Source: Strigamia acuminata
Lineage: Eukaryota; Arthropoda; Chilopoda; Geophilomorpha; Linotaeniidae
NCBI GenBank assembly: GCA_949358305.1
Contig: OX442314.1
Location: forward strand, 7,991,060-8,055,059
Direction: 5' to 3'
Length of the DNA stretch: 64,000 nt
The notes under the pieces were generated by a model. The model did no database searches. It was not told the DNA's origin and saw only the letters and a list, made by a program, of their open reading frames with translations. Below, one piece after another: positions 4,291-55,714 of the stretch (positions are counted from its first letter, which is position 1; each line of letters starts with the position of its first letter). A program made the position numbers and the translations under genes.

Positions 4291-7200
4291 CTGCAGTAAA
4301 CAGTTTGAAGTAAATTGTTTTGGATGCAAGCATTTTTACACTTGAAATAAGCAGTTTTGTTCTCTTCACAAGGATTTCGCTTTCTATTTCTTAGGACAGT
4401 CTATTGCATAAAATCTAACTTGTAAGTTATATGTGAGTAGGAATATGATTTGTGTAATTTTTTACCTTATGTAGTCGAAGAGTTACACCATTCACCCATC
4501 CATATTGTAAAGTCAAAGGTGCCAAAATATTAACTTCTTCTTCCAGATTATTTAGGAAAAACTGAAAAGTATTATAATTTAAAAATCGATCTGTAAGTAT
4601 TGGATCAGCATAAATGACAAGATATAGTTAAACGATGTTTTCACTAAGGGAATGGTTTAGATTGAATTTTTTAATGAATAAAACTTACCGGTACCACAAA
4701 TTGTATGAGAATTAGGTCCTGTGTGTGACGGGTTGGTGTAGTGTGCCTAACAGCACAGCCACACAGTAAGATGGGTGACCCAACCCCTAGACAATGATTA
4801 AAGGCCAAAACCCAACAATCTGAGTCCCTGTCTTGTTATTACGTGATGTATGCGTCCCTCCCGCCGTGGTAAATCCCCATACCAGGGCGGGTAAGACCAT
4901 ATCGCAGCCATAGTGTTCTTAATATGTTTGGAATATATTTGGAATACATATCACTATTTTAAATTGTAATGATAGTTTTAATGACATTTATAATACAGGA
5001 TGTTGGAGGACCTACTAGTAATTAAAAGGATTACAAAGTGTACCTTTAGATGCTGATCACATACTTTTGAAGAAATTAGATTTAATTCAATGTGAAATGC
5101 AACATATGGGTTGACTAATTTTTCTGAAAAACATTGGAAAGTCAGAATCAATTGTCAGACACATCAGATAAAAATAAATTTTAATAGTCAAATAATTCAT
5201 CATAAAATTAAAATATTAGAATTTAAAAGTATCACAACGGTAAAAATTGAGCATGTCAGCAGGTTTAAAGTACGGAGTATACTTTTGTGCGAATACAATA
5301 TAGCCGAGAATTAAGAATGTCAGGCCAATTTTATCGCATTCGTGCTGAGAACGACTTGGTTGCCTTGTGATTGCAGATGACACCCGGTAGGGTTGTGGGA
5401 TTATTTCTTTGGGCGAGTGCGGTGCGGATTGTTGGGCAATAATCGGTTTTAGATTCTATGTAGTTTTTGTTCTAATATGTTGGAGGCATAAAAATGGAGA
5501 CGCGTGGTTGTTAGGTGAAAATATTAACAGTGATGGTTTTAATCTTAAACAGATGTTAAAAAGTGCGTGGAGCACCAAATACAATTCGGGTCACTGATTG
5601 GTCAGTGTCAGTGACAGGTGCACAGGTGACAAAGACACCTGGCGGACAGGAATACAACATTCAATAAACAACACTTCCCCTGAATGGCAATATTCCTACA
5701 TTTTAAAATTCAAAACATTTTTCTTAAACAATTCAGACATTTAAAAAATTAAAGTATTCATTCACAAACAATTCAAATATTAAAAACAATATTTCTTAAA
5801 CAATTTCCTTCAATCCAAATTGGGCGATCAATTCTTCGTGTTTTGGCTTAAAAAGCCCCTTGGTCAACACATCGGCGACCATCTTCTCACTCTCCAGGAA
5901 TTCTATGTCGATATCTCCCCGCTCACATGTTTCTCGAACGAAATGGTGGCGAATGTCGATGTGCTTGGTCCTGGAATGAAAAATTGGGTTTCGCACCAAT
6001 TTGTGTGCCCCCTGATTATCGCTATAAATGAGGGTCGTTTCTTTCTTCTTGTTGATGTATTTAATTTCGTCTAGGAAGTTTCGCAAGTAGATTGCTTCTT
6101 TTGACGCGTCGGCCAACGCCATATATTCTGCTTCGGTCGACGAGGTTGCGACGGTCTTCTGCTTTCTTGCTTCCCAGCATATTGTCGCGTTCGCGAGTTT
6201 AAAGCAGTAGCCGGTGTACGAGCGACGGTCGTCCAAGTTTGCTCCCCAATCTGCATCCGTGTAGCCGACTAAGTCTTTTCCGGTCTTTTCGAATTTTAGC
6301 CCGAGATTCGATGAGTGCTTCAAATATCTTAGGACGCGTTTTGCTGCTGTCCAATGAGTTCCGGTGAAACACGTATTATATTGACTTAATGCGCTGACGG
6401 TGTAGGAAATATCGGGTCGAGTGCAAACGGCGAGGTACATGAGTGATCCGATTAAACTTTGGTACGGGAACTTCTCTGGATCCAGTAGCTCTTCGTCGGT
6501 CCCATCCTCCTTTTTCTTGTTTTTCTGCAATTTCTGATTTGCGTCGAGTGGAGTTGTGTTTTTCGAGCAGCCTTGCATTCCGAAACGATTCAGTATGTCC
6601 TTAACGTATTTTTTCTGCGCCATCGTGATTGATTTCGTCTTTTCGTCCTGTTTAAACTCGATTCCCAAGCAGTAGTGAATTTGTCCTAAATCCTTCATTT
6701 TGAACTCGCTCTTCAGGTTCGATTTTAATTTCTCCAAGTTTCTTTTGCAGTTCGTTGCGATGATAAAATCATCCACGTAGATTGCGACGAGCGTGATGAC
6801 TTCTCCATTCATTTGGTAATACACGCATGGGTCTGCGTTTGTTGGCTTCAGTCCGTGCTTTTGCAACTTCTCGTCCAGTTTTTTGTACCACTGGCGACCC
6901 GACTGCTTCAATCCGTATAATGCCTTTCTCATCCGGCAGACTTTTCCTTTCTTGATTTTTATTCCAGCGATAAATTCCAAATATTCGGGGAATTCCATAA
7001 AAATTTCCTCTTCGATTTCGCCGTTCAAATATGCCGTTATCGCGTCCATTTGGTGTACGGTCAATCCCAACTCGGCTGCGATTGCCATCATCATTCGAAT
7101 TGATCCCGGTCGTGCGACGGGCGCGTAGGTTTCAAAGTAGTCGATGCCTGGCTGCTGTGCATATCCTTTGGCGACCAGTCGGGCCTTTCTGCGTTCGATT

Positions 7201-10200
7201 GACCCGTCTGCTTCAAATTTTGTGCGGAGGACCCATCTACATCCGATTACGTTTCTATTTTTCGGTCGGTCGCACTCCTCCCACGTTTCGTTTTCAATTA
7301 AAGCGTCGTATTCGTCCTTCATCGCTTTCATCCATTCTTGTGGGTCGTTTCCATTCAAAGCTTCGGCCGCTGTCGTTGGATCGTCGAGAATTGCTATCTG
7401 TGCAATTTCGTCCAAAACTTCATTAGTTGTTGTCGGATTCTTTCTGGTGTATCTCTTTCTGGGTGGGTCCCCATTTCGATTTGGGTAAGGTTTTGGCGTT
7501 CTCGAGGATCGTCGTGGAATTATTTGCGCGTTTTCATTCTGACGAGGTTCGGCTTCTTCGTGTTGCGTCTCTCTCTCGTCCTCATTGTCGGGCTCGTTCT
7601 CGCCTGCGCTCTCGACTTCGTCCTCGGAAATTTCGGTTCCATTCTCGATTTGATCTGTTCTGCAATCGGTGAGAATGTCATTAAAATTATTGTTATTATC
7701 GTTTTCTTCACATTCTTCATTCGTTTCATTTTCCGATTTTTCGACAAATTTCACATCGCGACTTTTTATAATTTTGTTTTCGCTTTTTGACCACAAGCGA
7801 TACGCCTTCGATCCGTCCCAATATCCGATGAGAATACATTCTTTTGACTTCGGTTCGAACTTCCCCTTGTTCGGTTTCTTGTCCAACGCGAAGACTCTGC
7901 TTCCAAAAACCCGAAAATAGTCGACATTCGGTTTTCTTCCGGTCCAGACTTGATGCGGGATTTCATTTTCCAAACTTCTAGTCGGGCATTTATTTCGGAT
8001 GTGGCATGCAGTGTTGATTGCTTCCGCCCAATATGAGTTAGGCAATTTTGCTTGCAGTAACATGCATCGTGCCATCTCGATCAAAGTTCTATTCATTCTT
8101 TCCGAGACGCCATTTTGTTCCGGGGTTCGTTCGACGCTGGTTTGGCGCTTTATGCCGTTTTCTTGTAAATACGTGTCGAATTTCTTATTTACATATTCCT
8201 TCCCGTTGTCCGATCGTAAAACTTTTAGTGCGCAACCAGTTTCCCTCTCGCAAAACGTTTTAAATGATTTGAATGCCTCGAAAACTTCGCTTTTGTGCTT
8301 CAGAAAATACACCTTGCACCACCTCGATTTGTCGTCGGTGAAGGTCACGAAGTATCTTGATCCGTTCATGGACTTTGTTGGCATTGGTCCGCAAACGTCC
8401 GAGTGTACAAGTTCCAGCAGTTTTTCGCTTTTTGACGTGGAGTCAGGAAATTTCGTACTTGCGTGCTTCCCCTCGATGCAAGTTTCACAAGTTGGCAGCT
8501 TGGCGTCCTTTTCCAAATTCATTCCGTCCGCCTTTTCGTTTAGTATTTTCAGACTTGACTCGTTCAGGTGCCCAAGTCTTTTGTGCCATTCTTGTATTTT
8601 CGTACTTGCTGGTTTTGCAGGTTTTGATCCGGTTCCGACTTCGATTTCCGCTGCAGTCGCAGCATCCTCGGTCTCGTCGACGATGTAATACAGTCCGTTC
8701 CTTTTTTCGGCGGTGAATACGATTTCTCCCTTCGGATTTATCACTTCTGCTGATTTATCATCGAAAATCACCTTGTGTCCCCGTTCTGTGATCTTCCCGA
8801 CTGACATCAAATTCGTTCGTAAATCTCGTACCAAAAGAGTTTCCGCCAAATCCAGCTTCACATTTCCGTTCCCGGTGTTGACGACAATTTTCGCGGTTCC
8901 TTTTCCGTCGATTTTTGTACTCGCTTTGCTGGCCAAATTCAGTTTTTGGTTTTTCAGGAATTCGATCGTCGAAAATGTTGAATCGTTCGAGCACATGTGG
9001 GAGCTGGCGCCGCTGTCCAAACACCAATTTTTCGGTCGTGACGTCTCGCTTATCAGTGCTGTCTCGATTTGCTCGCAGAAAAATAATTCGTACTTGGATT
9101 TCTCGGCTCTTGATGCGCTTTCCTTCTTGCTTTTACTTCGACAATCGGCGATTTTGTGGCCAATTTTTCCGCAACCGTGGCACTTGTATTTAAAAGCTGG
9201 TTTCTCGGTCGAATTCGAATTTTCGTCGCCGTATTTCTTTGGTTGCTTACGTTTTTGGAACGTTTTTCTGGCCATCATGGCGTCCGACACGTCTTCTTTT
9301 CCTTTTCCGCGGGCGATCGACTCGTCTTTGATTTTTCCCTCCAAAACTTCCAGTGAAGGCAATTTGTCTTGCGATTCTATTGCGCATCTGAAGTTGTCGT
9401 AAGAGTTTGGCAGGCTTAGTAGTAGTAGAATCGTCGTGAAGTCTTCGGGCATCTTGAAATCCATGTCTAGTAGCTTATCCACCAGCTCGAAGAATTCTTT
9501 TAAGTGATTCTCCACGTTTTCTCCGTCCGCCATTTTGTGTGTTGCGAGTCGTTTTAACAACGTGATTTTTCTTGCCGGTCCTTTGGATTGGTACACACTG
9601 TGCAACTTCTTCCATAATTCATTCGCGGTGTTGCAATTTTTGGCCATTCGAAGTTCCGATTGTTTTATATTTAGCAAAATGTCATTTTTGGCTGTTCGAT
9701 CACTTTTCTCCCACGTTTCGATCTCCTTCACGCGTTTCGCGTTTCCTTCGATGGTTTCTGGTCGTTTCGACGTACCTTCCGCGTGCACGAGTAGGTCCCG
9801 TTGATCCAAAATTGCTTCCATCTGGATCTTCCATGTGTCGAAGTTTTCCTTTCCCAACGCCTCGATTCGAGCTGAATTTCCGCCGCCGTTCGCCATCGTT
9901 TCTTAGTTCTGTTTTTTGTGGAATGTTCGTGTTAAATTCGTTTTTAACTTCCTCGAATGTTCCGGTACAAAACTTGATGATTTTTAAGCGCAGTGGAAGC
10001 GTGCTGGGCCCATAACCTGTAGTTTTTGTTCTAATATGTTGGAGGCATAAAAATGGAGACGCGTGGTTGTTAGGTGAAAATATTAACAGTGATGGTTTTA
10101 ATCTTAAACAGATGTTAAAAAGTGCGTGGAGCACCAAATACAATTCGGGTCACTGATTGGTCAGTGTCAGTGACAGGTGCACAGGTGACAAAGACACCTG

Positions 10201-13200
10201 GCGGACAGGAATACAACATTCAATAAACAACATTCTATTTGCCTAGCTATTGCTTGAAAATGTGTTCATTTAATTCTTTTGTCATTCTAGTTATCATAAG
10301 GTATTTTGCGGTTTGCAATATATTGCGACTTACTTATATTGTAAGCTATCATGCAGTTTCTACATGATACCATGTGTTATGCACAGATTAGTGAGTTTGC
10401 GGTTGCCAATTGTTCCTTATAATTATGAGTTACAAGCTCATAATTATAATTATAATTCCTTCTTGAAATAGGCACTTGCGGTACAATAAATATATTTTAT
10501 AAATTATACTTATGAATACCATGTAATGGTAGAACAAATCCCTACGCAAAAGAAAATGAGAATCTGTAATTTTACTAATTTGACAGTTTTCAGACATGAA
10601 ATTTTCTTCCAGTTTATTTATTTGCTTACCTGGAATGATTTTAGTTGTTTCTATCCTTCGATGGCAGAAAGAAATTGTGATTGAGGCTGAATGTTGAAAC
10701 AGGTCAGGCAGCCATTTTGAATTTCCATTAGCACCATCAGCGCCATTTGCAATAGTGGGAGGAGCTTCAAATAGTGTTAAGCGATCTGATTGGCTCCCTT
10801 ATTTTACAAAATAGTGTAAAAGTTGAGGAGTTACGTTATGCTATAAGTCCATTTTTATAATTATGAGCTTGTAACTCACAATTATAAGGAACAATTGGCA
10901 ACCGCAAACACAGTAAATGACAACAACAACAGTAAACAAACGCAAACACCCTCTACCAAATACACCAGTAACCTTTTTATCCGTTTTTATCAGTTTTTTT
11001 TTTGGTTTTCTGCAGTTTTGCATTTTTCGGCGGTTTTGTGGTATTTGTGATTTTTTGCGGTTTTTTGCGGTTTGCAGTGAATTTCCATAATCGCACTGCG
11101 ATTGTTATAAAAAACCGCAGTGCGATTATAGAAATTAAAATATTGCCGTGCGATATATCGCACTCGTGAACAACGCTAACACTCGGCATTGAAGTCAAAT
11201 TAACTATAAGTAAGTTCTCTCCAACAATGCATTTTGCATTTGTATTACTGTATTAACTACTGATATTGCAATGTGAAATGAAGGGTGAATTTGAAGAAAA
11301 GAAAATCTATAAATTACCTGTGTTTATTCGTGAGCAATTACCAAAAGGAAGTGGAATAGGATGAGTTGATAAATTACGCATTGTTACATCACCCATCTAC
11401 GAAAACAATACTTTTCAGTTTTGTGTTTCTTTTGGGAATACTCTGTATAACATTAATAGTGTATACCCGTGGAAAAAAAATTCCCCTTCTGTTTAGCTGT
11501 TTTAAGTTTACTTGCATAAAAATCTATTGAGATTCGACGACATCACTCTTGACCTGGTCTCTTTTCTTGCCCTAACAACAGTGTTGGGCAAGGTACTCCC
11601 AATATATACCGCGGTACAAGTACGCGGTACTTCCGCCGACGCTGAAATGTACCGCGGTCCCGGTACCGGTACTTGCTGCGTCCTCAAAAAGTACCGCGGT
11701 ACTGGTACCGAAACTTGCTACGTCCTCAAAAAGTACCGCGGTCCCGGTACAGTACCGGTACCGGGATTTTGCGGTACATCTCGCGGTACTCGGAAAAACG
11801 CAAGAAAACACGAGATTCTCGTGTTCTCTCCCGTTTTCCACTTTAAAGTTAAAAACTTGATGTTTGTACTCATTCAAAGTGAGTATAAACGTCAATAAGT
11901 TGTAATATTTGTAATATTTTTTGCTAATAAATTAAAATGAAGTCTTATTTCAACCAAAATTATAGTTTTCATTAGAATAACACGTCGTGCGCACGTACAT
12001 TCACCCGTTTTTTGACGGGTGCGCTGCATTGAAGCACCAGCCCATAATTTTGATTTACAGGGCGCCGAAAGTACCGCGATACAAGTACGCGGTACTACCG
12101 TGGACTACGAAAACTACCGCGGTACAAGTACGCGATACTTCCGTAGACTACGAAAAGTACCGCAGTGCAGGGCTGCGGTACAGGGCTGCGGTACAGTACC
12201 GGTACCGGTACTGTATCGTGCCCAACACTGCCTAACAATAGTATTAAAAGATAGACCGAGCAAATCATGATGTCATTAAATCTAAATGGTTGTTTACGCC
12301 TCCTTGTGAACAAACTTAAAACTGCCGTACCGGTACTGCAGAGATGTTTTTTTTCAATGGGTGTACCTTTTTTAGATTTTTACAATATTTCGAATTTTAT
12401 CATGGACGTTTACTGTTTTCCAGATTTCTTCCAGTGACAATTTGTTGCTGAACAATTGCCAGGGCGATATTTCATTGCAGGTTTTTTTGGTGTGCTTCAG
12501 TAAGTGTAATCTGGCTTCGTTCATCTTATTATTTTTTCGTTCGCCACAGATTGTGACTGACTGAAAATCGGTGTATCGACGTTGAACTATTTCAACGATC
12601 TTTGATACCGGTTCATCAATGTAGTAATTGAAACGAATGTGCAAGCAATACAACGTAAATCCTGCAGTCACAAATATTAGCAGATATTGAAGCTTTTTTA
12701 AAACTCTTGCTGTCATGGTTTGTTTTTTGCTTGCAGTGACTTTCTTCTTGCATATCTCATACAAATAGCGGATCTTATAGACGGGCTTCTTTTGATTTAT
12801 GTTTGATGCAACGTAATGTAAATACCAAGTAATTTCGGGTAATGAAAGTACTGATAGGCCAAGAAACAGGCCCAGATTGCCTCCGAAATCTGATAGTAGA
12901 GCAATAACGTCGTAGGTGTATCGTTCTACATACACGCTAATTTTCTCATTACTTATTATTACAGATGCAAGGAATGTTTTATCATCATCTGCTATGCCTG
13001 TGTCAGTGGATGTTGCTAAAGTTATTTGTTGACATGGACGTCGACAGAGACAAAAAGATGAAGGATTTAGGTAAGTAATGAATAATGCTGCGGTGACAAA
13101 TTGTTTGAATGTGTTTTCAGAACACTTGCAAAGTGGCAAATCCACTTTCATAAAGGGAAATCTGTCAAAGATGATTATTATTTTTTTATTGCATGACACC

Positions 13201-14846
13201 ACACCTGCATGTAATTCTTACCTGCATGTAAGATGCTTTTTCAGTTTTTTAAAGAGACAACTTTGATAGCATTCTTTGTATTCTTCATCACTGGAGCATG
13301 GATTTATAGATGAATTGAGAAATATGAACTAAAATTTAAAACAGAATAGTGATTTATGCAGTTAATAGTGAGTTTGCGGTTGCCAATTGTTCCTTATAAT
13401 TATGAGTTACAAGCTCATAATTATAAAAATGGACTTATAACATAACGTAACTCCTCAACTTTTACTCTATTTTGTAAAATAAGGGAGCCAATCAGATCGC
13501 TTAACACTATTTGAAGCTCCTCCCACTATTGCAAATGGCGCTGATGGTGCTAATGGAAATTCAAAATGGCTGCCCGACCTGTTTCAACATTCAGCCTCAA
13601 TCACAATTTCTTTCTGCCATCGAAGGATAGAAACAACTAAAATTATTCCAGGTAAGCAAATAAATAAACTGGAAGACAATTTCATGTCTGAAAAATGTCA
13701 AATTAGTAAAACTACAGATTTTCATTTTCTTTTGCATATGGATTTGTTCTACCATTATATGCAAGGGATTTGTACTGTTCACGTGGTATTTATAAGTATA
13801 ATTTATAAAATACATTTGTTGTACCGCAAGTGCCTAATCCAAGAAGGAATTATAATTATAATTATGAGCTTGTAACTCATAATTATAAGAAACAATTGAC
13901 AACCGCAAACTCACTATTTTCTTACGTAAAATTTTACTTTGTTATAACGCAAATGAATGTTTGATGTTTCACCAGGAAATTGAATTGCTACGCAGTAGTT
14001 ACTTCCAAAATCATAGAAAGCAAAGCAAAGCTATGTGCAAAAAAAAATAATTAATACAAATCATAATTAATTTTTATTTATTAAAATTACCGAATATGGC
14101 ACTGTAGGGCACATATAATCATAACTTTTTTCCATTTTTACTGTGACTACTTGTCCAACAAATGAGTCGCTTGAAGCTTTTGCTGTGTAAATGATTGATA
14201 AAATGTATTGAAGACACAGCTAAATGTTTGTTAATAGTTACAAAATTTAATCGTTGAGCAAATTCCACGCGTGCTGCTGGTTTCTGTTAGAACAATTGTT
14301 TTGTTTGAATTTGGATATCTCTGCATGAAATAATTAAGTTTTTAAATAATCATTTTTTAAAAATAATTATTTTTTTACTTTTATTTTTACGCTGACCACT
14401 TCTTTTGTCAAATTAGTCGCTTTCCAAAGTTCATCCATATGGTAATCTGGGATTGTCATCATAATTTCCCATGTATTAAAACATTGGCTGGCTTTATGAG
14501 TTCTTTTCCAAAGTCTGTCCATTTCTTTTGTATTTCTATTGCAGATCATCAAGTTTGGTAGTTCTACATCTTCCGATTTACTCGTCACATCAACAACTGT
14601 TGGATAACTTAAGTAATGCTTTATTCTACCGTAAGTCTGATAAGTGAGCATACACGTGCAAAATGAGAATAAAAGCAGCCAAAAAATGTGACGCTTGCTC
14701 CCACGATGATTGCTATTTATAAAATCATCCAAGCCGATTAAATTGCATCTGAGGTTGTTTACATCATCCTTCAACAATTGGTGAATTGCCAAACGTAGTT
14801 TACTTAATCCTTGCCTGTTTCTTCTCATGAAAGAAGAATTCTGCAT
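4291..14846 (-). CDS. Double-domain DEG/ENaC channel gene B (exons 1-10; last exon not in window)
   Basis: This is a predicted pickpocket-like, amiloride-sensitive sodium channel family (ASC) membrane protein with two subunits fused in one chain. By comparison with gene A the exons are 14846-14379, 14320-14242, 14182-14091, 14030-13938, 13328-13222, 13161-12384, 11395-11317, 5123-5044, 4561-4466 and 4400-4291. All have AG/GT borders and consistent phase, giving 660 codons. Exon 1 carries TM1 (WLLLFSFCTCMLTY). Exon 6 carries the pore-forming TM2 (SDFGGNLGLFLGLS), then the linker, then TM1 of the second domain (LLIFVTAGFTLYCLHI). Exon 10 is the cysteine-rich exon before the terminal exon. The exon with the second TM2 should lie beyond position 1 or is lost. 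Intron 7 contains the Copia element, intron 6 a hAT MITE, and introns 4 and 7 one MITE each. The intron stretch 4600-5040 has no recognisable feature. Confidence 0.85.
5459..5673 (-). repeat. Copia 3' LTR
   Basis: 215 bp, identical to the 5' LTR. It is preceded on the element strand by the polypurine tract CAGGGGAAG (5674-5682), and the outer flank is TTCTA (5454-5458). Confidence 0.97.
5796..9896 (-). CDS. Copia Gag-Pol polyprotein (1366 aa)
   Basis: One uninterrupted frame holds all Copia functions in the order typical of the family. It has a Gag region (residues 1 to about 235) and a CCHC zinc knuckle (CHGCGKIGHKIADC, near 240). The aspartic protease has WCLDSGASSH near 290. The integrase has an HHCC zinc region (about 435-485) and the DDE core with LVHSDVCGP, VLRSDNGKEY and PEQNGVSERMN (about 500-605). 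The reverse transcriptase has YAPVARPGSIR and catalytic YVDDF near 1040. RNase H has GYTDADWG, TSSTEAEYMAL and SDNQGA (about 1210-1300). Integrase before reverse transcriptase is the Copia signature. No key catalytic residue is missing, so the copy is probably autonomous. The ATG at 9896 is the first after the primer site. Confidence 0.97.
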   Translation of the reverse strand: MANGGGNSARIEALGKENFDTWKIQMEAILDQRDLLVHAEGTSKRPETIEGNAKRVKEIETWEKSDRTAKNDILLNIKQSELRMAKNCNTANELWKKLHSVYQSKGPARKITLLKRLATHKMADGENVENHLKEFFELVDKLLDMDFKMPEDFTTILLLLSLPNSYDNFRCAIESQDKLPSLEVLEGKIKDESIARGKGKEDVSDAMMARKTFQKRKQPKKYGDENSNSTEKPAFKYKCHGCGKIGHKIADCRSKSKKESASRAEKSKYELFFCEQIETALISETSRPKNWCLDSGASSHMCSNDSTFSTIEFLKNQKLNLASKASTKIDGKGTAKIVVNTGNGNVKLDLAETLLVRDLRTNLMSVGKITERGHKVIFDDKSAEVINPKGEIVFTAEKRNGLYYIVDETEDAATAAEIEVGTGSKPAKPASTKIQEWHKRLGHLNESSLKILNEKADGMNLEKDAKLPTCETCIEGKHASTKFPDSTSKSEKLLELVHSDVCGPMPTKSMNGSRYFVTFTDDKSRWCKVYFLKHKSEVFEAFKSFKTFCERETGCALKVLRSDNGKEYVNKKFDTYLQENGIKRQTSVERTPEQNGVSERMNRTLIEMARCMLLQAKLPNSYWAEAINTACHIRNKCPTRSLENEIPHQVWTGRKPNVDYFRVFGSRVFALDKKPNKGKFEPKSKECILIGYWDGSKAYRLWSKSENKIIKSRDVKFVEKSENETNEECEENDNNNNFNDILTDCRTDQIENGTEISEDEVESAGENEPDNEDERETQHEEAEPRQNENAQIIPRRSSRTPKPYPNRNGDPPRKRYTRKNPTTTNEVLDEIAQIAILDDPTTAAEALNGNDPQEWMKAMKDEYDALIENETWEECDRPKNRNVIGCRWVLRTKFEADGSIERRKARLVAKGYAQQPGIDYFETYAPVARPGSIRMMMAIAAELGLTVHQMDAITAYLNGEIEEEIFMEFPEYLEFIAGIKIKKGKVCRMRKALYGLKQSGRQWYKKLDEKLQKHGLKPTNADPCVYYQMNGEVITLVAIYVDDFIIATNCKRNLEKLKSNLKSEFKMKDLGQIHYCLGIEFKQDEKTKSITMAQKKYVKDILNRFGMQGCSKNTTPLDANQKLQKNKKKEDGTDEELLDPEKFPYQSLIGSLMYLAVCTRPDISYTVSALSQYNTCFTGTHWTAAKRVLRYLKHSSNLGLKFEKTGKDLVGYTDADWGANLDDRRSYTGYCFKLANATICWEARKQKTVATSSTEAEYMALADASKEAIYLRNFLDEIKYINKKKETTLIYSDNQGAHKLVRNPIFHSRTKHIDIRHHFVRETCERGDIDIEFLESEKMVADVLTKGLFKPKHEELIAQFGLKEIV
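9988..10017 (-). other. Primer-binding site for a half initiator tRNA-Met
   Basis: Directly inside the 5' LTR the element strand reads GGTTATGGGCCCAG and continues for 30 nt in perfect complementarity to nucleotides 10-39 of the initiator tRNA-Met gene at 57584-57655. Copia in Drosophila is known to prime from a tRNA-iMet fragment ending at nucleotide 39, and the match here ends at exactly that base. Confidence 0.95.
10018..10232 (-). repeat. Copia 5' LTR
   Basis: 215 bp, identical base for base to the copy at 5459-5673. On the element's strand it starts TGTTGTTTATTGAATG and ends with CA just before the primer-binding site. The outer flank is TTCTA. Confidence 0.97.
10388..10908 (-). mobile_element. 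MITE with about 60-bp terminal inverted repeats, copy 1
   Basis: The ends read AGTGAGTTTGCGGTTGCCAA and its reverse complement TTGGCAACCGCAAA. Both termini include the palindromic block ATAATTATGAGTTACAAGCT. The body is nearly identical to 13367-13916 in the opposite orientation. It has no coding capacity and lies in intron 7 of gene B, next to the Copia element. The right end is slightly degraded (CACAGTAAA in place of CTCACTA). Confidence 0.8.
10909..11300. other. Unclassified AT-rich intron DNA
   Basis: Low-complexity text with repeated GCGGTTTTT-like runs and small inverted motifs (CGCACTGCGATTGTTATAAA and AACCGCAGTGCGATTATA). No gene or clear element is seen. Confidence 0.4.
11579..12230. 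mobile_element. hAT-type MITE with GGTACCGCGG palindromic arrays
   Basis: The termini CAGTGTTGGGC and GCCCAACACTG form an inverted repeat. The flanks are perfect 8-bp target duplications CCTAACAA (11571-11578 and 12231-12238), the size made by hAT transposases. The subterminal regions are packed with GTACCGCGGT and CCGGTACCGG palindromes, which can fold into strong hairpins. It is a relative of the element at 55715-56580, sharing the CAGTGTTG end and the CGGTACATCTCGCGGTAC-like block. It lies in intron 6 of gene B. Confidence 0.9.
13367..13916 (+). mobile_element. MITE with about 60-bp terminal inverted repeats, copy 2
   Basis: The same family as 10388-10908 but inverted, with both ends well kept (AGTGAGTTTGCGG and CCGCAAACTCACT). 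It sits in intron 4 of gene B immediately left of exon 4, whose donor is at 13937. No coding capacity. Confidence 0.85.
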
Positions 14847-44805: not shown

Positions 44806-45400
44806 CTATACTCGAGTAGCATTCAAAAAGCAGGTTTACAAAGTCTGCTCCCATTCGTCAGTTTCAAGGTCAGCCAGTTTACTACTAACTCCAGTCTGTA
44901 GGAGAAGTAGTTTTAGTTTTTATTTATTGTTGGGCTTGTTATGACTAGTTTTGTTAATGTTATTTTGATTTTTTTTCATAAAAAATGTTATTTCCATCAT
45001 TAAAATGAAGTTTTACACATTAAAAAATGTCAAACTCATGTTTGTTGTGTTTATTGCTTACATCGTCTGGAAAAAAATATATTTTTGAACTATTTATTGG
45101 TTACTCAGTCTGGAGCCTAAACAACTTTTGAATTATTTATTGGTTACTCAGTCTGGAGCCTAAACAACTTTTGAATTATTTATTGGTTGCTTTGTTATGC
45201 CGTTTAGTAAAATATAATTATGAAGGGCAACAGATATTGCTTCAACTTGTGGGCAGACATCTTTGTTTAACCTTGACAATGTACAGACATTGTAATCGAT
45301 GTGTTTTGGGTCTACTTTTCTGGATCACTACACTCAGTAAACTGGCGACCAATGGGAGTAGACTTTCTAAACCTGCTTTTTGAATGCTACTCGAGTATAG
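44806..45400. mobile_element. Foldback element, short relative of the minisatellite element
   Basis: The ends CTATACTCGAGTAGCATTC and GAATGCTACTCGAGTATAG continue as inverted repeats for about 60 bp (CAAAAAGCAGGTTTA...TAAACCTGCTTTTTG). The inner right side (GTGTTTTGGGTCTA, GATCACTACAC) matches 4065-4105. It contains a single inverted copy of the 20-bp unit of the 2395-4065 array (ACAGACATTGTAATCGATGT, about 45281-45302). A 45-bp unit (GGTTACTCAGTCTGGAGCC) is present about twice at 45090-45180. Confidence 0.85.
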
Positions 45401-47550
45401 TTCTTGTTCATTCGTTCTTTCAAAAAATCCTTGTTATCTTTTGAAAAATGTCTTAGTTTGAATTTTGTTGATTATTTTATGTAACTATTATAATTGGAAA
45501 ATCTCGAATTCTCTACGAAAAATCTACTTCTGTTTTGATTAGATTTTTTCAAGATATTTTATTATATTTTGGAAATTTCGAAATTATGAATTTTTTTTAA
45601 TCAAGAAATTTGACTTATAAAATTCTTGTTGTATTTTGAAATTGTCTGAGACCAAATCCTCTGATTATTTTGCTAATTCATTCTAATCAAGAAAGTTACC
45701 AATTTAATTGTTTTCTAAAAATCTACTGTGGATTCTATTAAGTTTTTCAAAATATATATTTCTGTTATATTTTGAGAAATCTCGAAACTACGAATTTCGA
45801 CGCTAAAATGGATAAAAAAATTTGGAAATAAAAACTGTCACGGCCCGTGTTTCCTACGCGTACAGTTTACGCATTGTTAACCCGTGTTTGTTCCTATTAA
45901 ACCTAATTTGTGATTCTCCTACCTTTGTTGTTTTGTTTATGTTTGATTCGTGAGTTTTCCTCATTTTCCTTCTATCTTATCTCTTACTCTCTCCTAACTT
46001 TCTCTTCATTCTCTCACTTTTCTCTTATCTACTCCTAGTTTTTCTTCTTTAGTTTATGATTTTGATGCAAGTCTATTTGCATATCTATTCTGGTCAGTAC
46101 GCGTCGGCGTTAGTCATACACTTAGTATGCACCGACTGTACTGATTGGCTCTTGACTCTTCCGTGATTGGTCAAGCTTGGTTGAGTCCAAGTTTACCTCT
46201 CACCCTATTTTTCCTCTTTTGCTTCAGTTGATCTCAGTATCCCGAACGCGTAGGTGCTCCTTTGGAGCCGGTGCTCATGGCTGAGGTTTAACTCCGAAGC
46301 TCACTCGTAGCTTTGCATTCGCCCTGGAATTCTGCAACACGGTTTCAGGCTTTCATTTCATTTCGCGTGTTAACTCACGGTTTTACACCACTCGTTCACC
46401 ATTTGTTTTCCTGCTCCTTTTTGTTCATGTTTTATCGCCGTGACGCGTTATCCAAGGCCAAACAGGATTTGTTGGCCATAAGTTCGAAGTTTGTGTCGTT
46501 TATTTCGCGTGTGCGTGCATCTAGCTTAGTTTAGCCGCCTGCCATTTGGGCTTTAGCTTTAATTAAGCATTAAGTCAGGTTTAGAGTTAGGTTTAGGGCC
46601 CGTGCGTTGTATAAGCACGAGTAAATTGCCCATCCTCGTTCAGACTCGACAGTTTGGGGTTGCTTATGAGCCACTACGAGACGTGCATTCGTTTGCCTTC
46701 GTGTGAAAACACGATTGTTGGCGGGTCACGCGTTGGGTTTTGGTTCAGACGCGACTACCGGACATTCTGTCCCCGAGTTTTACAGCGCGGGATACCCGGC
46801 CACAAATAAATATTAGTGTGGTGCACAGTATCTGAGAGTGTGTTAGCTGCCACTTCCTGCGCACATTCGATTTACGGCAGGTACGAAACTACCAGGGTGT
46901 GTGAATTTACTGTTTCGCGGCGTCTTTCAAACGCTTCTAAACCACCTAGACTCGCGATCCATCACAAAACAATAAAATTTTATTTTCAAGTTGGGTAAAA
47001 CTTGACTAGTTTTGTTCTATTGTTCTGTTCAATGTTAGGTGTTGTAGTAAAATATGAGATCTATGAATACGCATTTAAGATGCAATTCTTGATTTCTACC
47101 TCAAGGAGGGATTTAAAGGGATGAAGGAGGAAATCACCCGAGGCAAGGCCATGGGAAAGTGCATTAAATTATTCTGCTGTTTGAATTAAAGAGTTTTAAA
47201 AGGAAGTAGGTCATTGACTTCACCTGCTTCTATCACAACTGGTTTTTTTGGAACGTTTCATTTTACTGGAGGGAAAATGAATAAATGACGTGATTTGTTT
47301 ACATGTACTTTGTTGGCAAAATCACACATATTAACCATTTTTAGGAAAGTGGGAGGTAATTAAAGTGAAAGTGGGGGTAAATCGTATGGACTTCCAATGA
47401 CAGTGGGCAACATTTGCCATTGTTTAAAGTTTTCTGAGGGTATTGGAAGTGGGGGTTACGGCAAAATTAAAAGTGGGGGTAATTTTAAACGGTTTTTCTC
47501 GAGATGGTGAGTCGAATGCTATATTGCACGTATGGGTCAGGGTGTTTGAT
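45401..47550. other. Unclassified interior of the composite insertion
   Basis: 45401-45830 is AT-rich. At about 45838 a more GC-rich tract begins with TGTCACGGCCCGTG and runs to about 47000 with an AATAAA-like signal near 46970, which looks like another LTR or leader, but I found no second copy or primer site. The short open frames have no recognisable motif. Confidence 0.35.
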
Positions 47551-47554
47551 CACA

Positions 47555-47956
47555 TGTTGAATCTGCACTTGGTGAAATTTTGGCTATGTCCAACACGCTT
47601 CATTGGTGAAATTTTGGCTATGTCCAACACGCTTTGTTGGTGAAATTTGGCTATGTCCAACACGCTTCGTTGGTGATATTTTGACTATGTTCCACAAGCT
47701 TGGTTTGATATTTCGGCTATGTTCCACAAGCTTGGTTTGATATTTTGACTATGTTCCACAAGCTTGGTTTGATATTTCGGCTATGTTCCACAAGCTTGGT
47801 TTGATATTTTGACTATGTTCCACAAGCTTGGTTTGATATTTTGACTATGTTCCACAAGCTTGGTTTGATATTTTGACTATGTTCCACAAGCTTGGTTTGA
47901 TATTTCGGCTATGTTCCACAAGCTTGGTTCGATATTTTGACTAAGTTCCACAAGTT
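47555..47956 (+). repeat. 32-bp tandem repeat, about 12 units
   Basis: The consensus core is GACTATGTTCCACAAGCTTG followed by GTTTGATATTTT. Early units carry the variant GGCTATGTCCAACACGCTTC. Two sub-types (TTTTGACTAT and TTTCGGCTAT) alternate, suggesting amplification of a dimer. Confidence 0.95.
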
Positions 47957-49224
47957 TCTGTATTTATATTTGTACTTATTTCTTATTTCATGTATTTATA
48001 TTTGCAATTATTTCTTATTTTAATTAAAATTCAATTCATTTGTAAATAAATGTATTAAGATTTTTTAATAAAAAATAAATAAATAGGAAATGTAAAATGT
48101 GTAATTCAATTTATTTGCAGATAAATGTATTAAGATTTTTTAATAAAAAAGTCAATTGAAATGTTTAATAGGAAATGTAAAATGTCTAATTCATTTCATT
48201 TACAAATAAATGTATTAAGAATTTTTACATTTCCTATTAAACATTTCAATTGACTTTTTTATTAAAAATTATCTTTATTTGACCTAAAAACAATTTCATT
48301 TTAAATAAAAATTCAATTGCCCCTGGGGAAATTTTTTTTATTCACAAATGAAATGTGACCTAGTTGAAAGACCAGTTTAATTGCAAAAGAGTTGAAATGT
48401 ATTAACACAATTTAAAATGAGAATTCATTTGATTTTTTTGTCCTGTGTGTTGTTATTAATTCCTTATTTTAATTCTATTTACAAAAAAAAATAAAACTTA
48501 TTTTTAAATAAGAAAAAGTTAATTGAAAGAAAGTTTTTATTTGTTAATAGATATTAAAGTTGGAATTTATTAAACCAATTTAAAAATGAAATGGAATTAG
48601 AATTAAAACTATCCATTAGAAAAAATCAAATGAATTCTCATTTGATTCTTTTTAATTCCATTTTAACTTTTATAATTAATAATTTTCATTTACAAATAAA
48701 AATTTTATTCCTTCTAAGTAATGGAACTTTCCAAAACCAGCTGTGTTAAAAGTAAGCCATGTGACAGCATGTAATATATCTTGTAGGAAAAACGGATATG
48801 TGATCAAACAAACAAATTGATAAACATTTATCAAAACAAAAAAAAACAAAAAAAAAATGTTAAACAGTCGAATGAAAATATTTTTTTCCTCACCAGCAAT
48901 TAAATTTCCCCCCCGAAGGCTTTTGCTCTTTAAAAACAAAAATAGCCTTTAGAGATTTTTTTTAATGAGTCAGAAAAAACAGGTTTTCAAAGTGACTCAA
49001 TCAGAAATAAATGAATAATAAATTGTAAAGAAAAATAATTTTATTCAGCTTTTAATTAAAAATTCTTTTACACATTTTATTTGTTTTTCAAAATTTTTTT
49101 TTTACATTGACAAACGAGTTAGCAGAACAGGGGGCACTGCAATGATTACATACGTCACAATTAAACAAGACACTGTTAAATGAATGGCGTAAGAATGCTC
49201 TAGTATGTTCATAAAACTCCATTT
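47957..49224. other. AT-rich DNA with weak minus-strand frame
   Basis: A highly AT-rich stretch with inverted blocks such as GAAATGTTTAATAGGAAATG and CATTTCCTATTAAACATTTC (48160-48250). The minus-strand frame at 48939-48676 has one hydrophobic segment (FFLFFFVLINVYQFVCLI) but no recognisable family. It may belong to the Polinton fragment to its right. Confidence 0.3.
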
Positions 49225-49518
49225 TTATAAACATTCCTTCTCTTCATCAAAAAAATCTATATCCTTAATTTTCTTGCCCGGAATAATTTGATACAACTGC
49301 CTTATGTGTACTCTTGTTTCTGAGTTGAGAGAATCATGTATTATTCTTGCTCTTCTTTTTATTATTTTGCTTAGTTCAGGAAATTGTCCATCAATGCGAA
49401 ATACAAATGCAAAATTATTTATATCTGTAATTTCAGCCCCCCATCTACTTATAAGTTCAAAGATTATTTGCAGTAATATTTTCTCACTTTTTTCATAAGT
49501 TGCACAAAAAAATTCCAT
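49225..49518 (-). CDS. Hypothetical protein, 97 aa, next to Polinton genes
   Basis: A charged, compact frame with an ATG start (MEFFCATYEKSEK) and an acidic tail (DFFDEEKECL). I do not recognise the family. Its strand and position downstream of the Polinton protease suggest it is part of the same fragment, but this is inference, and the region 49560-50430 between them has no convincing frame. Confidence 0.3.
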   Translation of the reverse strand: MEFFCATYEKSEKILLQIIFELISRWGAEITDINNFAFVFRIDGQFPELSKIIKRRARIIHDSLNSETRVHIRQLYQIIPGKKIKDIDFFDEEKECL

Positions 49519-50429
49519 GTTATTCAGCTGAGAAATAATTTATTTTTAATTGAAAATTTAATTAAAATGATGTTTACATACTATATTTTTAATTTATTTT
49601 TAATTGAAAATTTAATTAAAAGCAATTTTATTTATATTTTTAAAAATTTATTTATTTATTATGCATTGCCGGATGAGTCACGCTGCTTTAATATAATTAC
49701 ATGGTCACGTGTTTTGAATTAAATCAGGTGTTTATTCACATATTCATTTTTATTTCCAGATTTAATATGTGAAATATAATTTGTAATTACACCCAATTAA
49801 TCAAAAGACTATTTCCTTATTCAGAGAAAAAACAGTAAAACTAACAATATAAATATTATTTTAAAAACTTGTGATAATTAATTACATAATGCCGCATTAT
49901 ATATATATATAGAGTAGCATTTAGCCGAATAAATGACTTATTTCAGCCAATTCCTGGATTTCGGCGATAGTTACATTGTCGTGTATGTATTTGACGTGTT
50001 CAATATTCTCACTGGAAAATCTACCAAGTTTCTCCACCAGAGTTTGAATCTTGATCTGAAATGCCACAAAAGTAACGAATCGGTTCTCTGATCTATTGAG
50101 CCTCCATAATTAACCAAAAGGAATAATGATAAATGTTTCAAAATTATTTTCCTTTCATCGGTAGTTTTGTTCTGTTGGAGTTCAAAGAGATACATTTTAA
50201 TTCTTTTCTTTCTCAAATTGAAGTGAATATAATAATGTTGCTTTTTTTATATATAGAAAATTTTTGTTACGGTTTCATTTTTGATTTGATACGGACTTTA
50301 ACACATGCCCGTGCTTGTTTGCAGACTTTCCGTAAGGTTTTGTGCGAATCTTTGTTGATTTCAAATTAGGATCGTTTTAACTTCTTAAATAATTTCATTT
50401 TTTTGTGAAAAATGGAAATTGGGTTTACT

Positions 50430-50849
50430 TTACAACAACTCGAGATTATTCATTCCTCGAATGATTTTAATGATTGTATTCTGCCTGAGATTAAGATTGG
50501 CTGCTAAATAGAGCGCAAAGAGGCAAAACATCCCGCAAGAATCCTCTTTTGTCAACGAATACACTTCTTTTGTAGCATAATCTAGGGTAACGTCTCTTCC
50601 GACAAAATCAATGATCTCTTTAGGTGGAACGTTTCCCAAATTATCAAAGTATATGCCTCTGTCATTGCAAAGATACAAGCTGACCCAATGGGTACCACCA
50701 CCCGTCGATGGGTCTAAATTGATGACGAAGCTTTCATTCTTGCCCCGGTGATTCGCGAGCGGTTTCAAGCAATCGATGGGCAACACGTTGTTGAAGTGAG
50801 CGATACGTAGTTTATTCTTCGCCCAGTTGTAAATTTCCACGTTATTCAT
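50430..50849 (-). CDS. PRO: Polinton/Maverick adenain-like cysteine protease
   Basis: The 139-residue frame shows the catalytic order of adenovirus-type maturation proteases: His in GTHWVSLYL, Asp in GIYFDNLGN, and Cys in DSCGMFCLFAL. Polintons encode such a protease to process capsid proteins. The ATG overlaps the stop of the integrase frame (ATGA at 50849-50846), which is compact virus-like packing. The frame is open from start to stop with all three catalytic residues, but the surrounding element is incomplete. Confidence 0.8.
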   Translation of the reverse strand: MNNVEIYNWAKNKLRIAHFNNVLPIDCLKPLANHRGKNESFVINLDPSTGGGTHWVSLYLCNDRGIYFDNLGNVPPKEIIDFVGRDVTLDYATKEVYSLTKEDSCGMFCLFALYLAANLNLRQNTIIKIIRGMNNLELL

Positions 50850-51193
50850 TTTTTAATGTCGATGAGATCATCCACCCATGAATTATGCTTCTGATTGTAG
50901 CCGACCCATTTCACTAGGTACTTCCATGATCCATCGCTGTTTTTCTTTTTTCTAATGACTTTCTCGATCAAGTAGGGATCATCTACCCTGGTTTCAGTTT
51001 TTTGGAGTTCTTCACGGTAAAAGGAACCTTCGATCGATTCTCCCAAACTGTCTTTCAATTTGAAAATTGGAGGTTCATACGTCGTGTCCACTTTATCAAT
51101 TGTAAAGATTTCATTAGTCCAATTTTGCAAAAACCCTTTGTCAAATATGGATTTGGATTTGGAAATACGCACTCGGCAGTCAAATCCATCCAA
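50846..51193 (-). pseudogene. INT: Polinton integrase, C-terminal part with chromodomain
   Basis: It contains the C-terminal domain pattern VRISKSKSIFDKGFLQNW and FKLKDSLGESIEGSFYREEL, followed by a chromodomain (YLIEKVIRKKK, WKYLVKWVGY, NSWVDDLIDI). This arrangement is typical of Polinton integrases. The catalytic DDE core is missing because the frame is cut at about 51180 by LTR sequence; the apparent start codon lies at that junction. Confidence 0.8.
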
Positions 51194-51587
51194 TCCCAGA
51201 TCATAGGAAGTGGATACTCAGGACATAGTCTTCTACTAGGTCCACTACAGGAACTGGATACGCAGGACACACTTTGGATTAAGTCCCTTTGACTATAATC
51301 CAAAAGGAGTCCAACTCACAGTGGGTGATGAGGGGTGACTTCACCAGGTGTAAAGTTTGCACATAATTCAATAGAATTATGTGACAAATAAATCAACTAG
51401 CATTTAAACATCCAAAAGTATTTAAAAGTGTCTAAAGTCGCAGTGGAATAAAATATAAATAGTAATTTATATTTTATTCACTCAAAAATTGTCGAAATTT
51501 GAAATTACCGCTAAAACGTATCAGCGCCATCTATTGGTGAAATAATCGTCCTATACTAGCAAAGTGTATGACAGTGTAACCGTCACA
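51185..51587 (-). repeat. Inverted LTR start, related to 43130-43540
   Basis: On the minus strand it begins TGTGACGGTTACACTGTCAT and follows the 5' LTR for about 400 bp with many differences (TAGATGGCGCT, TTGGACTCCTTTTGGATTAT, GTGTGTCCTGCGTATCCAGT). It abuts, head first, the plus-oriented LTR end at 51588. Confidence 0.75.
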
Positions 51588-51711
51588 AGTTTCAAACCGG
51601 AATAAATGTTATATGTTTTGAGAAAACATCAGGTTTGCATATTTTACACTTTCACACAGATAGTTCACACTTTAGTTTAGCAATTGCTATCTCCAGAAGG
51701 TAATCGTCACA
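51588..51711 (+). repeat. 3' LTR end fragment of the exon-9 element
   Basis: 124 bp, nearly identical to 44542-44665 (GTTTCAAACCGGAATAAATG, CTCCAGAAGGTAATCGTCAC). It is followed by the CAGG duplication. Confidence 0.85.
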
Positions 51712-53729
51712 CAGGAATAACTGAAAATATAATATTCTTTAAAAATTTTATTCTTGGATTTTTTTTTTTTTTCATCTTAGAACCAAGATTAAGTTTTTCA
51801 ATAAATAAAAATGTCTATACGTAGATTGAATTCACAAATCTGGAGTTCAAACATTTTTTTATGCCTTTGCATTTTGAAAATTTTGACTGCAAACATTTTT
51901 GTGAACTTTAAGCTTATATACTGCTATACTAGTATTACCTTTAAATGCTGGTCACATGCTGTTGGAGGGAATAAATTTTCAAATTTAATCATGAGGTAAG
52001 CGGTTAAGTCGATTGATTTTTCTGAAAAACATTGAAACAGTCAAAATTATGGCTGGCTTTTTTACGCCGCAGAAAAAAATTTCAATAACTTGTTCATTTT
52101 CATTGCAAATGAGGCACAATTAATTAATTCCTATAAATTGCCCAAATGTGTGCTCTCAGAAATTAAATGTGTTAAATACCTATGTTTATTCGTGAGCAAT
52201 TACCAAAAGAAAGTGGAATCGGATGCATTGATATGTTTAGTGGTGTTTTATATCCATATATTTCCTACAAGAAAAATAATTTGATGTGATTGTTTTTGGA
52301 ATATAACATACGGTAGTATACTTTATTCTCAATATCAATTGTGTCATGTATGTTGAGTGTTCTCCAGATTTCTTCCAGCGACAATTTGTTGCTGAACAAT
52401 TGCCAGGGCGATATTTCATTGCACATTTTCTTGGTGTGTTTAATTAAGTGTAATCTGGCTTTGTCCATGTCATCATTTTGTTTTTCACCACAGACCGTGA
52501 TCGACTGAAATTCTACAAAGCGACGTTGATCTATTCTAACGATTTTTGTTACCAGTTCATTAATGTAGTATTTGAAACGAATTTGCAAGCAATATAAAGT
52601 GAATCCTGCAGTCACAAATACCAGCACAAACTTAAGCTTTTCTAAGATTTTATCTGTCATCGTTTTCTCTTCACCGGCCAAGACTTTCTTCTTGCATGTT
52701 TCATACAAATAGCGAATCTTATTGTCGGGCCTTTTTTGATTTGGGTTTGACGCAACATAATGTAAATACCAAGTGATTTCAGGTAATGAGATTATCGACA
52801 GACCGAGAAACAGACCCAGATTGCCTCCTAAATCCGAAAGTAGAGCAATAACATCATAGGTGTACCGTTCTTCATACACGGTGATTTTGTCATTAGGTAT
52901 TTCTAAAGATATAGATACAGTATTTTTATCATCTGCTATGTCATTATCACTGAACGGTGTAAAAGTTAATTTTTGACATGAACGTTGACATAGACAATCG
53001 GAAATTGGTTTTGTATTTTCCATCAATTCAAGTGCAATATGGTATTGTTCGTGTGTGCTGTTCGAACATCTGCATAGTGGTAAATCGGTTTCCGTAAAGG
53101 GGAATCTTTTAAAGGAGATATTTAATTAATGTTTTTGTGATACCATCTCATATATTGTTACCTGCATTTTAGATGCTTTTTAAATAGTTTCGATAGACAA
53201 TTTCTGTAGCATTCTCTGTATTCGTCTTCACTGGAGCATTGATTTATAGGTGAATTAACAAATATAAACTAAAAATCAAAACAGAATAAAGTGATCCATA
53301 CATAGTAATTTTTAAGTTATTGGGTAAAATTGTACTTTCATATAACTCAAATAAATTTTTGTTGTTGCACCGGGATATACTACAGTTACACCAAACTGTC
53401 TTTCAAAATTTGAGAACGCAAGGATAATCTAAGTGTAAAAAGAGAATCAATAACAGTCACACAAGTGTTGTTTATTAATATTACCTTATAATAAGCTTTA
53501 GGGCATATGTTAGACATTTTTTTCATGGTTAATGTCAGTAGTTCTCCAAATAAATATTTACTAGAAGCTTGTGCTGTAACAATAAATGATATGTATAGAT
53601 AGTGCTGAGTTTTTGAATGTTTGTTTGTAGTTACGAAATTGAAATGTCGAGCATATCCCATATTTACGGATGGATTCTGTCTGAACAATCATTAAATGTG
53701 AATTTGAAAATTTCTGCAAGAAATAAAGG

Positions 53730-54549
53730 CCATAAATTATGTTTAGACATAAAACTATGTCTAGGAGGACACAAACCATGCAGCAACACGACAATAACAA
53801 CAACAAATGCCACAGTGGAAAACAATTCCCATCAATAGATGGCAACAACAACAATACCACAACAGAAAACAATTTCCCATCAAGAGATGGCAGTGACTTT
53901 GTTGGAATGATAAGGTCTAAGGTTAAATATAAGTAGAAAGTATCTTATACCTTACTTATTTAATATTGTACGTGAAAGTCATAGGTTGTTGTGACCCCAA
54001 ATGTCCTCATGATATTTGGATAAAATTTGTTAATATTATGTAATAATTTTAATGTATTTATTTCGCTCTTGCCTATGCTACAGTATCTATCGGCTATTGG
54101 CAAAAATTCATTACAGCTACCATGGTAACGATACTGCCAAAATTAGAGGATTGCTATGGCTAGCCCCTATTGAGCACCGTTGCTAAGTACGAAGTGTGCC
54201 AGACACATCGGATAAATCCTCTACCGGACCTCCTCGACGAAGGGCTACAGACTGAACACCTACCGCCTCTGACCACGTTCGATCGAAGACCGATCCTGCT
54301 CCAGAGCTGACAGTATTTTGTGAGTTCCTGCGAACAAGAAGACTGGATTCATCCACGGCGCTGTACTGCCGGTTGTATTCGATCTTCCACATAGAATTTC
54401 CAGCTTCAACTCGTGGTTCAAACTCACGTTTCTCCACCGGCCTAGCTCCCTATCTACCTATCTAGCCACTGTTCTGGCTCCTTAGCCAAGCAAACACCGT
54501 GAAGTCGCCAGATTTTACACCCTTTGTGTCTTACACATTGAGCGGCAAT
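53730..54549. other. Intron 1 of gene C, no feature before the MITE
   Basis: A short simple run of CAACAACA-like units lies near 53800-53870 (CAGTGGAAAACAATTCCCATC repeated in part). No gene or further element is seen. Confidence 0.4.
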
Positions 54550-54777
54550 CAGGGACGTCTTTACACTTTTCAGCGCCCTGGGCTAATAAAACTCAGGCGC
54601 CCTTTGCCCAGCACTTTTCTGTGGCCGGCGCCCTTCTGTACCCATCAAGCCTCTGTGCCCATCGAGTTTCTGTGCCCGGCGCCCTTCTGTGCCCATCGAG
54701 CCTCTGTGCCCGGCGCCCCCCTGTGCCCGGCGCCCCTGGGCTGCAGCCCAGTTAGCCCAATGGTAAAGGTGGCCCTG
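54550..54777. mobile_element. Short hAT MITE with perfect 8-bp duplication
   Basis: The ends CAGGGACGTCTTTACA and GGTAAAGGTGGCCCTG are imperfect inverted repeats. GCGGCAAT is duplicated at 54542-54549 and 54778-54785. The interior consists of GGCGCCC(T/C)TCTGTGCCC units. It lies in intron 1 of gene C. Confidence 0.9.
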
Positions 54778-55714
54778 GCGGCAATTCGAGGGGAAACAAC
54801 ACTCGTTGTTTCTTTTAAGGCCAAATAATCTATAGAAGACCTGAAACAGCATTCAACTGGTTCCGCCACTTGAATTCCGGGACTGATTTAATTTAACTCA
54901 TTGTTTGGAATATCCAGGAATGCAGGAAGATGTTAAAAAAAATTTAAAAGATGTATTTGATACATTTACACTTTTTTAACCCTATTATTTATCCTAGTGT
55001 ACTGTGCTTCTTTGAATCTTTTATTGTTATAAATTTTAAAAAGACGTGTTTTTTGTTTTTACCTTTATTTTTGCGCTTACTATTTCTTTCGTCAAATTAG
55101 TCGCTTGCCAAAGTTCTTCTATCTCGTATGTTGGATTTGCCATCAGAGTTCTTACCATGTTAAAGCAGCCGGTGTGGATTTTTCCATAAGTTTTATTCCA
55201 AAGTCTGGCCATTTCTTTCGTATTGGTACTACAAATCTCAAAGTTAGGCAGAATGACATCTTCTGATCTGCTGGTCACGTCGACAGCCGTAGGATAACTT
55301 AAGTAATGCATTATTCTGTCGTAAGTCTGATAAGTGAGCATGCACGTACAAAATGAGAATAAAAGTAACCACAAGACGTGATGCTGTCTCTGATGTCTTC
55401 TACTGCTTACGAAATCATCCAAACCGATTAACTTGCATCGAAGTTTGTTTGCATCCTCCTCCAGCAATCGGTGAATTGCCGAACGTAGTTTTCTCATCGA
55501 ATAATTATTTTGCATATCTGTGACGCTATTGGACAAAAACTTATGATCAAGGCTTCATTGGCCCCAGTGGATTACTTAGAAATGTTCAAAGTTGAGGTTG
55601 TCTTAAATTATTATCCGTCGCAAAAAGAGAACCTGTTTACTTTTCTTTTTGGTACTTTGCTTACCAACCTTATTTACACTGGTCATTATCACAGAATCAT
55701 TATCTGCATACAAG

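Follow-up and report, generated by a model that had tools for sequence, protein, structure and literature searches.

A cluster of two-domain DEG/ENaC genes in Strigamia acuminata

The stretch of DNA analysed here, referred to as the window, comprises 64,000 nucleotides of chromosome 1 of the centipede Strigamia acuminata (C1:7991060-8055059), and it carries on its minus strand a tandem cluster of genes in which two domains of the DEG/ENaC channel type (Pfam ASC, PF00858) follow one another in a single reading frame, a departure from the usual layout of one ASC domain per chain. A preceding sequence-only reading had described such a cluster, and the cluster stands, with the corrections that only exons 1-10 of the gene at 14.8 kb fall inside the window, that the gene at 55.5 kb is broken, and that a fourth unit is a remnant. 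Exons in the window were located on the minus strand with peptides from one two-domain gene as queries, and the search base was the S. acuminata assembly of 237,517,015 bases in 157 contigs (taken to be qcStrAcum1.1, described as based on HiFi and Hi-C data, PMC10556566).

The complete gene of the cluster (32541-36680, minus strand) has 11 exons and ten introns, each of the latter with a GT donor and an AG acceptor, and its product, counted from the ATG at 36680, is 799 amino acids followed by a stop; the 801 codons given by the sequence-only reading are obtained if a second in-frame ATG two codons upstream, at 36686, is used instead. Exon 1 (36183-36680) encodes the N-terminus, the first transmembrane helix (TM1) and the start of the ectodomain of domain 1, as judged from the gene model and an alignment with the centipede channel BRTNaC1 (broad-range thermal receptor 1), and exons 2-5 (36118-36040, 35977-35886, 35827-35735 and 35671-35565; together 35565-36118) continue the domain-1 ectodomain, as assigned by splice sites, phases and paralogue matches. 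The fusion exon, exon 6 (34711-35494), which is placed by the gene model and by paralogues, holds the domain-1 pore helix, an interdomain linker of 40 residues (35020-35139) and TM1 of domain 2. In the remainder of the gene model, exons 7-10 (34639-34555, 34485-34403, 34299-34204 and 33891-33782; together 33782-34639) form the domain-2 ectodomain, and exon 11 (32541-32913), to which a copy at 18.7-19.0 kb is 88% identical, supplies the end of that ectodomain, the domain-2 pore helix and the stop. The exon-end phases run 0,1,0,0,2 and then 0,1,0,0,2 again, the same series in both halves, which agrees with the matching splice phases reported earlier over 11 exons. The correspondence between the halves holds in order and in phase: exons 2-5 pair with exons 7-10, and exon 6 pairs with exon 11 in its first half and with exon 1 in its second.

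Exon 6 is open in all three larger genes of the window (about 12384-13161, 34711-35494 and about 52320-53105, minus strand), where, as had been claimed, a pore helix (GGNLGLF.GLS ... LPEITWYL) is joined by 40 residues to a second TM1 and a second FxS[VI]T[ILV]CG motif, and exons 7-11 do provide the second ectodomain and second pore (GLGLGMSLLS) that were attributed to the further exons. The 799-residue chain matches the Pfam ASC profile with 149.1 bits, against a cut-off of 23.6, in three stretches of which the best is 449-783; the search with this family also gave a match in one of 14 control genomes, that of Thermotoga maritima. Each half of the chain separately matches solved DEG/ENaC structures, and domain 1 and domain 2 share 25% identity over 134 aligned positions (E 5e-10).

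Conservation of the fusion exon

In a set of 30 exon-6 paralogues the linker from pore 1 to the second TM1 is free of stops throughout; in five copies the final one or two codons of the matched stretch include a stop, beyond the likely exon end. In 29 copies the distance from the end of pore 1 to the middle of TM1 is 47 residues, and the remaining copy has 48. Of 89 close copies that span both domains, 80 are followed within 30 kb, on the same strand, by a domain-2 pore exon of their own, and 56 have it within 5 kb, the pairing having used 96 of the 150 matches of the domain-2 pore exon.

These observations bear on the explanation that two single-domain genes merely share exon 6, with one transcript ending and another starting in the linker, and that no fused protein is made. 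An in-frame Met lies in the linker or in the first half of TM1 in 16 of the 30 copies and a polyadenylation hexamer lies between pore 1 and mid TM1 in three, both of which such an arrangement could use. Without a linker stop in any copy, however, domain 1 would have no end, and in the other 14 copies domain 2 would have no Met in this stretch from which to start; the fixed length of the linker, its ratio of nonsynonymous to synonymous substitution rates (dN/dS) of well below 1, and the domain-2 pore exons lying downstream in most close copies speak against separate genes as well, and we regard this explanation as very unlikely.

Pooled dN/dS was computed from 29 copies, after removal of one (L013) that is identical to another (L012), and it is 0.445 for the linker, 0.160 for the pore, 0.460 for the part of the domain-1 ectodomain and 0.361 for the part with the second TM1. 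A comparison of the complete gene with L055, a copy elsewhere in which all 11 exons were matched, gives values of 0.23-0.44 across the seven parts, with the minimum in the linker. For the other pairs, five in number, usable values stay under 0.7 apart from the high exceptions considered below, and dS is saturated behind one linker value of 0.07. Apparent mis-hits to exons outside the stretch compared were set aside, namely exon 1 of L046a and of L056 and exon 11 of the second window gene; L046a also lacks exons 2-3. On these ratios both domains and the linker are under purifying selection, which argues for their joint translation and function.

Two-domain loci across the genome

With exon 6 of the complete gene as query, the genome gave 141 matches, of which 136 were entered (the five omitted are short fragments); 125 of these span both domains and 111 of the spanning matches are stop-free. 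An exon-6 query from a distant cluster on C6 gave 146 matches, all entered, with 141 spanning and 132 stop-free. The union of both searches amounts to at least 225 loci, on 10 scaffolds, with pore 1 and the second TM1 in one frame, and 204 of them are stop-free; the totals are a lower bound for spanning stretches, because only the best candidates were scored, and they count loci, near-identical copies included, rather than proven genes. Many of the loci lie in tandem clusters, and a second pore exon is present in each of the seven distant loci that were fetched (L040, L041, L049 and L051-L054).

With this many loci, chance is no reasonable account of the fusion. One might suspect an artefact of assembly, or pseudogenes that form a run by chance, in the window, where one of the three larger genes is broken and a further unit is a remnant, and some copies elsewhere are identical in exon 6, as are the L012 and L013 pair. 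Against this stand the number of loci and of scaffolds in a HiFi/Hi-C assembly, the open frames through the matched stretch in the large majority of them, and the purifying selection in the copies tested, which together leave an artefact exceedingly improbable.

Origin and divergence of the two domains

A tree of pore exons was built from 48 sequences, namely 16 of domain 1, 18 of domain 2 and 14 of single-domain channels (13 from this genome and BRTNaC1), shorter pore fragments being omitted. All 16 domain 1s fall in one clade (95/84) and all 18 domain 2s in another (98/88), and the domain 1s come from several places on C1, C6 and C8 and include subfamilies with as little as 26-32% identity. 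From these separate clades it follows that the fusion is most likely older than the radiation of the family and most likely arose once, before it. The simplest history would be that two adjacent genes lost the first stop, the intervening DNA and the second start, such that the last exon of one merged with the first exon of the other. Single-domain genes share the phase-2 boundary ahead of the pore exon, on both sides in L042 and L044 and on the acceptor side in L006.

The two domains differ at fixed sites across these 16 domain 1s and 18 domain 2s. An Asp and an Ile precede the pore helix in every one of the domain 1s and are missing from all of the domain 2s, and the pair before the filter is GG in every domain 1 and in 13 of the 14 single-domain sequences, and GS or GN in every domain 2. 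The filter itself is GLS in 15 domain 1s and GFS in one, and in domain 2 it is GMS in eight, GLS in eight, GVS in one and GLC in one. Four cysteines of the pore exon are invariant in both sets. Typically, DEG/ENaC chains carry His-Gly before TM1, and in place of it, in domain 1, the complete gene has Asp-Gly, the second and third window genes have Ile-Gly and the L045 genes have Thr-Gly; the Asp-Gly of the sequence-only reading thus holds for one of the three window genes. No motif of the His-Gly type could be recognised by eye in the linker ahead of domain 2.

It might be supposed that one domain alone forms the pore, in a conventional trimer, and that its partner lies outside this trimer and is spare or has a regulatory role. 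The loss in all domain 2s of the second Gly right before the filter would suit this idea, but 17 of the 18 domain 2s still have a G-x-S filter (the exception being GLC), as do all 16 domain 1s, and the dN/dS of domain 2 resembles that of domain 1, making a single pore-forming domain improbable. The two halves appear to be specialised, and neither appears dead.

A probable fused two-subunit channel chain

Considered together, the open frame, the repeated splice phases, the fixed linker, the purifying selection, the 14 of 30 copies that lack a Met for domain 2 and the separate clades of the two domains sustain the earlier proposal of a fused two-subunit protein, and we consider it highly probable that these genes encode natural tandem-dimer DEG/ENaC subunits. 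The chain would run from TM1 through ectodomain and pore to a second transmembrane helix (TM2), then by way of a short cytoplasmic linker into a second series of TM1, ectodomain, pore and TM2.

Several points weigh against this reading or against parts of it. A hydropathy scan with a cut-off of 1.5 detects three of the four transmembrane helices, namely TM2 of domain 1 and both helices of domain 2, and TM1 of domain 1 is placed from the BRTNaC1 alignment alone. An AlphaFold prediction on exon 6 with the three window paralogues was unusable, with a mean predicted local distance difference test score (pLDDT) of 35.7. High dN/dS values occur in one short ectodomain comparison (1.07) and in two parts compared with the broken gene (0.85 and 0.82), and in 21 of the 225 loci there is a stop inside the matched stretch. 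The free tree does not pair the two domains as sisters but joins domain 2 to BRTNaC1, and domain 1 to the single-domain genes (90/81, not starred), and a tree with the double-gene domains on one side is not rejected (p 0.22); on these sequences, the tree tests do not separate duplication of one gene from the fusion of two diverged neighbours. The centipede channel PDPNaC1 is reported with nine exons (PMC12714832), which makes a six-exon ancestor a matter of inference.

The stoichiometry puzzle posed by a two-domain chain in a channel with three positions is real. Within the fused-subunit reading, both domains would be neighbours in one trimeric cation channel, the order of subunits thereby being fixed, and the third position might be filled by one conjectural single-domain subunit. 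A trimer of one two-domain chain and one single-domain subunit is the assembly that we tentatively favour, at somewhat less than even confidence, because the genome has many single-domain pore exons, which end shortly past the pore helix, and because a constant linker length is expected for neighbours in one trimer. These pore exons include two that are BRTNaC1-like at C6:3.52 Mb (L006:1474-1890), candidates for the partner, which lie about 2 kb apart and are 41-43% identical over the matched part, the second having one stop in its match. The double chains might instead assemble alone, as three chains with six domains in which a domain-1 trimer and a domain-2 trimer are linked in a double-barrelled channel. 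The filter and the constraint are kept in both domains, and each domain forms a clade of its own, as would be expected if each trimerises with its own kind, but a linker with a fixed length of 40 residues would fit neighbours in one trimer at least equally well, and we think the double-barrelled arrangement rather unlikely. A trimer made from two double chains with one domain left out is, in our estimation, unlikely. Whatever the assembly, a two-domain subunit in a three-position family makes the determinants of DEG/ENaC stoichiometry directly testable.

As to function, the family may be a large set of sensory channels, chemo-, acid- or thermo-receptive, as in BRTNaC1 and PDPNaC1. Tandem clusters with turnover, here including a remnant and young insertions, are the pattern of receptor families, and a sensory role is most likely. 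In the sister species Strigamia maritima the gustatory receptors number 77 genes, of which 17 seem to be pseudogenes, and the ionotropic receptors 69 genes, of which 15 are ionotropic glutamate receptors (IGluRs) (PMC4244043). Both sets are exceeded by the loci counted here, and the two-domain channels may thus be a main, overlooked sensory family. A more speculative proposal, which we would not expect to hold as a whole, is that the two-domain subunit evolved once, in a centipede lineage, and expanded to more than 200 loci for tuning receptors, each chain occupying two positions of the channel in fixed order, that share a single-domain co-receptor in the third position; if true, a trimeric sodium channel would here be the basis of a receptor and co-receptor system similar in logic to that of insect odorant receptors.

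Other gene copies and elements in the window

The second gene has exons 1-6 at 12384-14852 (minus strand), with the first Met at about 14846 and the end of exon 6 put by eye at a GT, and the matched parts of exons 7-10 at 4290-11375 (minus strand). Its exon 11 lies outside the window, at C1:7989994-7990368, 0.7-1.1 kb past the left edge. Between exons 7 and 8 there is a long terminal repeat (LTR) element (5459-10232) with a minus-strand frame of 1368 amino acids, Copia-like by eye, and 215-nt end repeats that are 100% identical.

Peptide matches place exons 1-7 of the third gene at 52184-55524 and its exons 8-11 at 39785-52022, both on the minus strand, with exon 11 split by an insertion of 2554 bp (40166-42719, minus strand). 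The insertion has identical 121-bp end repeats of the TG...CA type and a 5-bp duplication (CCATC), and to judge from these features it looks like a recent LTR-type insertion that breaks exon 11. Exons 8 and 9 of this gene are separated by a large gap, in which a frame at 50430-50852 (minus strand) has a weak match, slightly below the cut-off, to Peptidase_C5 (adenovirus-type endoprotease); it might be a remnant of a Maverick/Polinton element.

The fourth copy is a 3' remnant with exons 10-11 only (18660-19261, minus strand; peptide matches), and between it and the complete gene exons 1-9 were not matched at E 0.3, other than a chance-level exon-7 match of 12 residues at 24.3 kb. Upstream of the remnant, in the same interval, lies an element (20274-26777) with frames of 1327 and 460 amino acids, BEL/Pao-like by eye, and with two pieces of end repeat, one of 300 nt (100%) and one of 164 nt (99%).

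Between two of the channel genes, a plus-strand frame of 456 amino acids (37731-39101) matches Cullin with E 1.5e-76 over profile positions 12-426 of 620, and is perhaps a truncated retrocopy. Near the ends of the window, about 84 copies of a 20-bp tandem repeat (2395-4070) match to 99% and leave three plus-strand frames open, a minus-strand frame at 57916-58563 has a weak ankyrin repeat close to its end, and a plus-strand frame of 1051 amino acids (59923-63078) in a G+C-rich stretch is gag-like by eye and contains a CxxCxxxGHxxxxC motif.

Comparison with known channels

A natural two-domain DEG/ENaC subunit was not found described in the open-licence literature searched, which is in keeping with the sequence-only reading, whose author was aware of no described family with this layout, and an unnoticed record with two ASC domains may exist. 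None of the terms degenerin, ENaC, pickpocket, amiloride and sodium channel appears in the main text of the S. maritima genome paper, which lists 'sodium transport' among the functions enriched in lineage-specific duplicates (PMC4244043). Members of the DEG/ENaC family have a shown or suggested role as chemoreceptors in insects and mites (PMC7738191).

A large arthropod set close in kind is the expansion of DEG/ENaC genes in a spider mite, reportedly described by Ngoc et al. in 2016, which is not known to include a two-domain layout. Among solved structures the top match is BRTNaC1 (8ymr, 8ymw and 8ymx), with a best E of 1.7e-15 for domain 1 and 3.5e-10 for domain 2. It is a myriapod channel of similar size per domain to each half here, but in contrast to the double chain it has a single domain, in 431 residues, with three chains per PDB entry, and it carries His-Gly where domain 1 here has Asp-, Ile- or Thr-Gly. 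PDPNaC1 (9jf7), a proton-dissociation DEG/ENaC of antennal neurons in a centipede, aligns to domain 1 (E 2.3e-13) and is not among the domain-2 matches; it too differs from the double chain, being a single-domain protein of 421 residues that forms a homotrimer and is encoded by the nine exons mentioned above (PMC12714832). ASIC matches both domains and FaNaC matches domain 1, in line with a common ASC-type channel domain.

The wider family, with ASIC, FaNaC, ENaC and insect pickpocket, has one domain per chain, longer ectodomains and the His-Gly motif. A closer parallel in layout is provided by the two-pore-domain K+ channels and the TPC channels, which, like the double subunit here, have two pore-forming units per chain. 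The pores of those channels need an even number of units, which is divisible among two-unit chains, whereas DEG/ENaC channels have three.

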